Below are positions 58,682-62,260 of a DNA stretch of 64,000 nucleotides, piece by piece. Numbering within the stretch: the first letter of the stretch is position 1; every line of letters begins with the position of its first letter. Made by a program: the position numbers and the translations under genes. The notes under the pieces are model-generated. The model had not been told where the DNA came from, made no database searches, and worked only from the letters and a program-made list of their open reading frames with translations. Source of the stretch: Rhodospirillales bacterium (lineage in GTDB: Bacteria; Pseudomonadota; Alphaproteobacteria; Rhodospirillales; JAPHRK01); contig JAPHRK010000033.1 of the NCBI GenBank assembly GCA_026196105.1, positions 124,001 to 188,000 on the forward strand, given 5' to 3'.

Positions 58682-59335
58682 TTACAAAATAGATTGTCCA
58701 GTTTTTTTCCAATCGGCCAAGAAGTCTTCTAGACCTTTGTCAGTGAGCGGATGTTTGAACATTTGCCATATTGCTTTAGGGGGCGCTGTTATAACATCTG
58801 CGCCGAGCTTGCCAGATTCAACAATGTGTAATGGGCTGCGAACAGAGGCGACAAGAACTTGCGTGTCAAATTCATAGTTGCCGTAGATATTGACTATATC
58901 TTCAATCAGTTGCAGGCCATCAAGAGACAGGTCGTCTAAACGCCCTACAAAGGGAGAGATGAAGGTTGCACCTGCTTTTGCTGCGAGGATGGCTTGAGCT
59001 GCTGAGAAGCAAAGGGTAACGTTAACCATAGTCCCTTCATCGCTCAATGTTTTACAGGCTTTAATTCCATTTTCAGTCAAGGGAACTTTAACGGTTACAT
59101 TGTCGGCTATTTTAGCAAGCTTCCGGCCTTCTTTGATCATACCGTCATAATCTGTGGCTGTTACTTCGGCGCTCACAGGGCCATCGATTAAATCGCAAAT
59201 TTCTTTAACTGTAGAAACAAAATCTCGACCTGTTTTAGCAATTAAGCTTGGGTTTGTGGTTACGCCATCAACAAGGCCCACGTCATTGAGTTTAGTAATT
59301 TCATCTAAATCAGCGGTATCAACAAAAAACTTCAT
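58682..59335 (-). CDS. tal: Transaldolase (TalC/FSA-type, short form)
   Basis: A 217-residue class I aldolase of the fructose-6-phosphate aldolase/TalC family. The Schiff-base lysine is Lys83 ([16 protein letters not shown]). Residue 129 in [10 protein letters not shown] is Phe; the FSA subtype usually has Tyr there and transaldolases have Phe, so transaldolase activity is more likely than fructose-6-phosphate aldolase. The N-terminal [18 protein letters not shown] is typical. The start ATG has GGAGGG upstream. Confidence 0.92.
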
Positions 59336-59424
59336 TATCCCCTCCGGATGTGGATAGATTGTTATTTAGCTCAATAAATCTCATACTGTGAGAGAACAAG
59401 CAAAAGGAAATGGAGGTAAACCTC

Positions 59425-59835
59425 ATGATTTTCCATAAGCCATTTTTCTTCAGAGCAGATGAAGGCGAAAAAGTAACGATAAAACCGCGAACAAAAGGCC
59501 TAGTTAAACCTGAAGAAGAAAAATTATTTTGTAAGAATTGTGGTCAATGGATCACTTCAGGCCCTTGGCGCATTGCTGTGAATGGTGAGCATGAGCACAT
59601 ATTTTTCAATCCTGCTGGGGTGGTTTTCAAAATTGGTTGTTTTAAAGAAGCGCCAGGGACTATCAGAGTTGGGAAATCCAGCGATGAGTTTACTTGGTTC
59701 AGGAACCATGTATGGCAGATTGTGATCTGTAACGAATGTGAAACCCACTTAGGATGGTTTTTTTCAGAAGCGAAGATGTCCTCCGTTTTCTTTGGCCTAA
59801 TTTTACCGAAATTAACATCAAAGAAGTTGCTTTAA
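59425..59835 (+). CDS. CULT domain protein (bacterial cereblon thalidomide-binding domain)
   Basis: A 136-residue protein with a single CULT domain. GGAGGT lies seven bases before the ATG at 59425, so that start is chosen over 59410. Zinc ligands are Cys36-x-x-Cys39 and Cys102-x-x-Cys105. The tri-tryptophan pocket of thalidomide-binding proteins is Trp91 (FTWFRN), Trp97 (HVWQIV) and Trp111 (HLGWFF). The spacing agrees with the Magnetospirillum gryphiswaldense MsCI4 model (offset of 12 residues at every position). The core FFNPAGVVFKIGCF is also characteristic. Natural ligand unknown; uridine and other glutarimide-like compounds have been proposed in the family. It converges with a CHASE kinase gene, ending one base before it. 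Confidence 0.93.
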   Translation: MIFHKPFFFRADEGEKVTIKPRTKGLVKPEEEKLFCKNCGQWITSGPWRIAVNGEHEHIFFNPAGVVFKIGCFKEAPGTIRVGKSSDEFTWFRNHVWQIVICNECETHLGWFFSEAKMSSVFFGLILPKLTSKKLL

Positions 59836-59836
59836 A

Positions 59837-62260
59837 TCAAACTTTCTTTAGGGCCTTATCAATAGTGCTAATGGTTTCTATGACGTTTATTGGTTTAGTC
59901 AAATAGTCAGTGAAACCTGCTGCAAGTCCTCGTTCAATATCTTTTTCTAAAGCATTTGCACTGACGGCGATGACGGGGGTTTTATTTAATCGTTCATTTT
60001 CTTTGATTCGCTCAAGAGCTTGAAAACCGTCCATACCGGGGAGGTTGATATCTAGAAGGATAAGAGTAGGGTTAAGGCTTTCAAGAATTTCAAGACCTTC
60101 CTCAGCACTTTCCGCCGTAAACATCTTACGGCCAAGTTTTGCTGTAATGATGGCTTCCATCAGCTTTAAATTTGCTTTGTTATCTTCAATGTATAAAATT
60201 TCACCAGAAGCATTAATATTCTCTATTTTATCTTCACGTGGTGCTGCTTTTGGTAATTGATTGATACGTGCCGCAAGTTCTAATTCTACCCAGAAAAGAC
60301 TTCCTTCACCTATAGTGCTCTCGACCCCCATTTTCCCGCCCATGAGCTCAGTAAATTTTTCAGCAATGGTTAAGCCGATACCAGCACCTTCAATCGCTGA
60401 TCCTTCGGCATCCAGGCGGTTGAAAGGTTGGAATATTTCAGAGAGTTTTGTTTCTTCAATTCCAAAACCAGTATCAGAAACAAAAAAGCGGACATGGTTT
60501 TCGTCTATTCTCGTGGCGGAAACCTTAACCTGACCCTCAGTCTTGTTATATTTAATTGCGTTTGAAATCAAGTTAACGAAAACTTGCTTTAACCGTGTGA
60601 AATCCCCCCTCACTGAGGGGATTAAAGCCAAAGCTTCCCAATCAATGATTACTGTTATGTTTGCCTTATCTGCGATCGGGGTTACCAGGCTTTCACTCTG
60701 TTTTAAAACCTCAGTTGGGTTTATAGGTTCTAAAGTTAGCTGGATAGTTCCAGCCTCGATTTTTGAAAGGTCAAGAACCTCATTAATGAGTTCAAGTAGG
60801 TGATCTCCGGCTGATAGGATATGGGCAATGTAGAGATCACTTTTTGCAGGGTCAGGATGGTCTCGGTTTAAATCCAAAAGTTGGGCAAATCCCAGGATAC
60901 CATTTAGCGGTGTTCGTAATTCATGGCTCATACGAGAAAGAAATTCAGACTTAGCTAAATTGGCTTTTTCGGCTTCATCTTTTGCGGCCATGAATTCTTG
61001 AGTTCTTTCAAGTACTCTTTGTTCCAACTCTTCATGGGTTTGCTCTAATTCAGCCTGCACCTGTTTCATCTGAGTAACATCTGTCTGAACGCTAACACGG
61101 TCTCCTAGTCCTGTTCTGCGCTCCCGGATAAGAATATGACGTCCATCAGCCATATGGATGGTGAAGGTTTCTTGAGATTCCTGGGTTGCTCCCTTAACAC
61201 GCTCTTCAAAATAAGCTTGTTGGTCTTTTTCTGACCCAGCGATAATATTTCGTTCCACGTCAATGTACCCAAGTTCAACAAAATGTGTACCAGGTGCGAC
61301 TTCTTCTTCTGTATATTGGTAAAGGTCCTTGAACCTGTCGTTACACAAAACCAATTGATCATTGGAGTCATAGAGTACAAAAGACTCAGGGATGCTTTCG
61401 ACAGCTTCTTTAAGCCTACTCTGGTTTCGGCGACTAATAAGCTGGGACTGAAGGACAGAGCGAAGGGCGAGGGTAAGGGCTATAATTGCGAGGAGCATAA
61501 TAAAAAATGCAAAGTTCTCGACACGAACAATGCCGTTGGGCGTGAGATTAACTATCCACCCTTGACCAGCAATAAGTATAGGAGTCTGTGTGGCGAACTC
61601 ATCACGTCCGTCGTCCTCGCCAAGTTGAAAAAATACTTTGCCATTCGCATGAATAGAAAGATGATAATCCCCCCCCATTCCTGTTATGAACAATTGGTTC
61701 ATAAGCGATGTCAAATTAAATACGGCATTAATATACCCTGTGAGTTTCCCACCTGAGAACACAGGGTAATAGATAACAAACCCTTCGCCCCCTTGTGCTA
61801 GATTAATAGGGGGGGTCGCCGTTGGCTGTTGTGATTGGAATGCCCTCTCAATAGCTTTTGCTGAAGGAGGTATTTTTTTTAAATCCAGATTAAGGGCTGG
61901 TTTATTATCTTCTTCAGGGACAATTATTCGTATGATTTTGTTCGTATCCACCCAATTTATAGCCTGAAAGCCTGGAAATTTATTTTGCAAAGCTACAGAA
62001 TGATTTTTAAAATAAATATCGCGTTCATTCTCCGTTTTTTCTGCAACTTCTTTGACAAGAAGCTCAATACTGTTTGTCCGGGCTTTGACGAATTCTTCAA
62101 TGCGAGCCGAAAACTGTTTGGCAGCAAAAGCAGTTTGTTGGCGGATAGATTTTTCATTTTGTTGGACGACGTTTAGCCAGGCAGTTCCAATTAACAATGT
62201 CAGCAGAACAAACACAGCCATTGCTGTTCGACTCGGATTGTTAAGGAATATGGCACTCAT
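59837..62260 (-). CDS. CHASE-PAS hybrid sensor histidine kinase
   Basis: An 807-residue kinase. TM1 (13-31) and TM2 (about 249-270) flank a CHASE domain (about 60-235), with the characteristic block [25 protein letters not shown] domain (about 282-398) follows, then a coiled coil, HisKA with His446 ([20 protein letters not shown]), HATPase with [10 protein letters not shown], and a receiver with Asp in [17 protein letters not shown] domains sense small extracellular ligands, such as cytokinin-type molecules in plants and quorum or amino signals in bacteria. It shares its kinase core with 5449-7545 and 51583-54255. Confidence 0.93.

Follow-up and report, generated by a model that had tools for sequence, protein, structure and literature searches.

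A stand-alone CULT-domain protein from a Rhodospirillales bacterium, with a conserved zinc site and a cereblon-like pocket of predicted human-type cage base

CULT domains form a family of their own, separate from Yippee / Mis18, and bacterial CULT proteins, MsCI4 among them, were already described in 2015 (PMC4287342). MsCI4 (MGR_0879, 'cereblon isoform 4', from Magnetospirillum gryphiswaldense; PDB 4v2y and numerous further entries) is a single-domain CULT protein like the one reported here. Its cage tryptophans are W79, W85, and W99; glutarimide is held by bonds to the Phe77 and Trp79 backbone, and a third ligand hydrogen bond is provided from the base of the cage by Tyr101, a bond that is absent in human cereblon, where the residue is Phe (PMC8900816). 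MsCI4 Tyr83 anchors a mobile pocket loop, and its human counterpart, Tyr384, belongs to a binding-deficient mutant; the pocket is partly disordered when empty and becomes ordered on binding thalidomide or uridine, the latter with low micromolar affinity, but neither cytidine nor thymidine is bound (PMC4449219). Human cereblon, whose CULT pocket binds thalidomide, reads C-terminal cyclic imides on proteins through this pocket. No handle is used more in targeted protein degradation than cereblon.

The window, by which we mean the whole 64,000-nucleotide stretch analyzed here (contig JAPHRK010000033.1 of assembly GCA_026196105.1, positions 124,001 to 188,000), carries one such gene, and its features and immediate neighbors are as follows.

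58682-59335, minus strand: transaldolase, divergent, 89 bp upstream of the ATG at 59425
59412..59417, plus strand: Shine-Dalgarno sequence GGAGGT, read directly from the sequence, 7 nt 5′ of the ATG at 59425
59425..59835, plus strand: stand-alone CULT-domain protein of 136 amino acids (ORF reading and homology)
59530..59541, plus strand: first CxxC zinc knuckle, C36 and C39, invariant in 102 homologues
59608..59619, plus strand: NPAG, residues 62-65, the conserved NPxG hairpin tip (alignment; PMC4449219)
59689..59715, plus strand: pocket segment F89-T90-W91 ... H95 ... W97, with two cage tryptophans (alignment and comparison with MsCI4)
59728..59739, plus strand: second CxxC zinc knuckle, C102 and C105 (alignment and conservation)
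59755..59763, plus strand: third cage tryptophan W111 and cage-base F113 (comparison with MsCI4 and alignment)
59837-62260, minus strand: CHASE-PAS-HisKA-HATPase-REC kinase, convergent, 1 bp downstream of the CULT gene

The reading frame is open for 136 codons from the ATG at 59425 to a TAA stop. An alternative upstream ATG at 59410 would yield 141 residues, but the GGAGGT lying 7 nt before the ATG at 59425 makes the latter the likelier start. No signal peptide was apparent by eye, and promoter and terminator scans revealed nothing above chance.

A phmmer search of PDB sequences matched the protein to MsCI4 (PDB 4v32/4v2y) with an E value of about 1e-29, residues 27-131 forming a 105-residue ungapped alignment, and also to human cereblon (best E 7e-9, others weaker); these matches bear out the preliminary description of a complete bacterial CULT domain protein, and we regard chance similarity to either as excluded. 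Profile searches were less direct: the Pfam Yippee/CULT search proposed in that description gave only a sub-threshold hit, Yippee-Mis18 (PF03226) scoring 21.2 bits against a gathering cut-off of 26.6, no CULT-specific model came up in either Pfam or NCBIfam, and NCBIfam had no significant match at all. The possibility of a full cereblon-type E3 substrate receptor was considered and rejected, as Pfam finds no LON match and the protein has just 136 residues, 26 of them before the aligned region. Similarity to characterized CULT domains is accompanied by i) two CxxC motifs (C36, C39, C102, C105) for one predicted structural zinc; ii) three cage tryptophans (W91, W97, W111); and iii) the hairpin tip, here NPAG. 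We conclude from sequence that the product of ORF 59425-59835 is a genuine, ordinary new member of the bacterial CULT domain family.

Conservation was assessed in 102 aligned CULT proteins, comprising the window protein and loci from 101 other genomes, and in a non-redundant subset of 85 proteins less than 80% identical to each other. C36, C39, C102, C105, N62, W91, F92, W97, G110, and F122 never vary in the 85; the zinc cysteines and two of the cage tryptophans are likewise invariant in all 102, and W111 is replaced once, by Cys in L034. This constancy indicates that the zinc site and the cage are under strong purifying selection. The L034 homologue (L034:5947-6309) may have a changed or decaying pocket. 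The cage-base site is more labile, with Phe in 56 and Tyr in 46 of the 102 proteins and at least 19 changes on the CULT tree, a count that comes from few columns and many weak forks; the site equivalent to MsCI4 Tyr83, His95 in the window protein, is Tyr in 77 and His in 11.

The cage might read some mark other than a cyclic imide, such as a methylated lysine, a quaternary ammonium compound, or, as with the related MsrB fold, a group resembling methionine sulfoxide. Aromatic cages often bind cations (PMC4449219), CULT and MsrB share a fold (PMC4287342), and the window protein does have a weak MsrB-family match; that match, however, is below significance (E 0.08), and cationic-ligand tests reported in PMC4449219 were inconclusive, so we rate this alternative as very unlikely.

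CULT proteins are widespread in the order, with a match in 82 of the 297 genomes sampled (the window's own included), one copy each; elsewhere they are sparse, further samples of the class and the phylum giving matches in 3 of 384 and 21 of 397 additional genomes, and one match lies in a gammaproteobacterial MAG. Such wide single-copy spread within one bacterial order means that a deletion phenotype could be tested in a culturable relative. On the CULT tree the window protein groups with sequences not belonging to its order, at a support of 88 that is not decisive, and this placement hints at possible lateral transfer; its highest identity, 57%, is to a sequence from the same order. A mobile origin was rejected after no match was found in plasmids, phages, or viral contigs.

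The placement of the gene beside a convergent CHASE kinase and a transaldolase had been described correctly. Both neighbors lie on the opposite strand, leaving the CULT gene to stand alone, and neither is conserved beside CULT in other genomes, so they carry little information about its role. In the other loci, surveyed by a heuristic choice of genes from six-frame ORFs that admits some spurious ORFs in GC-rich genomes, 74 of 100 upstream neighbors are on the same strand as CULT by our ORF choice, and 54 of the 74 lie within 60 bp or overlap it. The identity of the upstream neighbor varies by family (Der GTPase, short-chain dehydrogenase, HIT protein, PPK2, parvulin, TadA-like deaminase), and a conserved operon partner, sought in all 102 loci, was not found; neighbors are family-specific. 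The clearest pairing to recur across families is a rhodanese directly downstream of CULT in six loci (L114, L115, L121, L128, L129, and L131) from three families outside the window's order. This rhodanese is a single-domain protein with a CRSGHRS active-site motif, encoded on the same strand and nearly touching CULT, and was confirmed by Pfam for two loci. The loci most closely related to MsCI4, L062 and its relatives, have a parvulin prolyl isomerase gene (L062:5318-5956) on the CULT strand, 2 bp upstream, whose product carries two PPIC domains; genes resembling parvulin are also near CULT in other members of L062's family and in a second family.

The adjacent kinase raises the question of whether CULT is a two-component signaling accessory that partners the CHASE hybrid kinase. 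Two-component genes fill 17 of 201 immediate-neighbor slots compared with 26 of 655 slots further out, and CULT in L034 and L070 is preceded on its own strand, at a distance of 9-23 bp, by a histidine kinase gene, but the excess loses significance once relatives are collapsed (p of 0.07 at the genus level and 0.15 at the family level), and by family the mean two-component fraction is no higher than background. An apparent enrichment in the first 42 loci was thus abandoned once 102 were considered. Moreover, the window kinase is on the strand opposite CULT, and with 119 receiver-domain matches in the genome chance adjacency must be common; a signaling partnership therefore seems highly improbable.

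A uracil-type native ligand, either uridine or, for example, the degradation product dihydrouracil, would instead make CULT a sensor or buffer of pyrimidines, consistent with the selectivity of MsCI4 for uridine (PMC4449219). In three genomes of one genus (L045, L099, and L106) CULT and a histidine kinase gene are divergently oriented, and the sole kinase copy scanned (L045:6488-8425) carries an NMT1/THI5-like sensor domain that may bind pyrimidine-like molecules; the NMT1/THI5-like fold in other proteins binds pyrimidine precursors. Pyrimidine genes, however, are not a recurrent neighbor of CULT among the loci examined, and the authors of the uridine study (PMC4449219) found no biological context for uridine binding; we consider a pyrimidine ligand rather unlikely.

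We favor, with a probability of roughly 0.6 for the mechanism as a whole and for no single ligand, a cytosolic single-domain CULT reader whose flexible pocket would close on a flat cyclic imide. Two CxxC motifs would hold one structural zinc, pinning two β-sheets together; the three-tryptophan cage, partly unfolded when empty, would shut on the imide, which would hydrogen-bond to the backbone of F89 and W91, the pocket segment at 59689..59715 including the positions whose backbone hydrogen-bonds glutarimide in MsCI4. For the physiological ligand our preferred candidates are a cyclic imide carried by the damaged C-terminus of a protein or a small molecule equivalent to it, and the protein would then mark or sequester damaged products. 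Since the LON and DDB1-binding parts of cereblon are absent, such action would have to be ubiquitin-free and proceed through some partner; we know of no ubiquitin system in bacteria of this kind to receive a target. The beta-tent fold of the window protein would follow from its alignment to the solved MsCI4 structure; an AlphaFold model built from a two-sequence alignment only (window and L002) had a mean pLDDT of 35.5. Folding on binding and micromolar affinity for thalidomide and uridine would similarly carry over from MsCI4.

In favor of a cyclic-imide reader are the ungapped 105-residue alignment to MsCI4 and the match to human cereblon, the zinc-site and pocket residues that are invariant in the 85 homologues, the structural and binding data on MsCI4, and the reading of cyclic imides by human cereblon; against it are the replacement by H95 of the tyrosine equivalent to human Y384 of the binding-deficient mutant, and the lack among 102 loci of a conserved operon partner that would support a role in protein quality control or elsewhere. 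PCMT, which belongs to related damage chemistry, occurs in 295 of the 297 genomes and is so nearly universal that its co-occurrence with CULT is uninformative. It is tempting, though quite doubtful, to go further and regard bacterial CULT as an ancestral ubiquitin-free reader of cyclic-imide damage in which Phe/Tyr switching at the cage base tunes affinity, the window protein representing a natural 'human-type' cage.

To what was known of the family our survey adds how far it extends within one order, how nearly absolute the conservation of its cage is, how often Phe and Tyr switch at the cage base, and that some families pair it with a rhodanese; no earlier account of these was found in the open-access passages and searches consulted.

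Compared with known systems, the window protein would have a beta-tent fold related to that of Yippee / Mis18 (PF03226) but falls under that family's cut-off. The preliminary description had given its zinc and cage residues exactly the spacing of MsCI4, and this holds, C36, C39, C102, C105, W91, W97, and W111 all being where it placed them, at the MsCI4 positions shifted by 12; the likeness fails elsewhere in the pocket, where F113 replaces Y101, with predicted loss of the extra ligand hydrogen bond, and H95 replaces Y83. N94 also replaces G82, the N-terminus is longer, and fewer than half of the aligned residues are identical. The F113, H95, and N94 substitutions could alter stability or affinity, and for this reason thalidomide binding should not be assumed. 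Human cereblon differs in having a LON domain, a DDB1-binding region, and a ubiquitin system, as well as His378 where the window protein has F89 and Tyr384 where it has H95, but the zinc knuckles, tryptophan cage, and cage-base Phe are common to both. The window cage base is thus predicted to be of human type (F89, W91, F113), and the protein could be used in drug-binding work as a soluble stand-in, a purpose for which MsCI4 needed a Y101F mutation.
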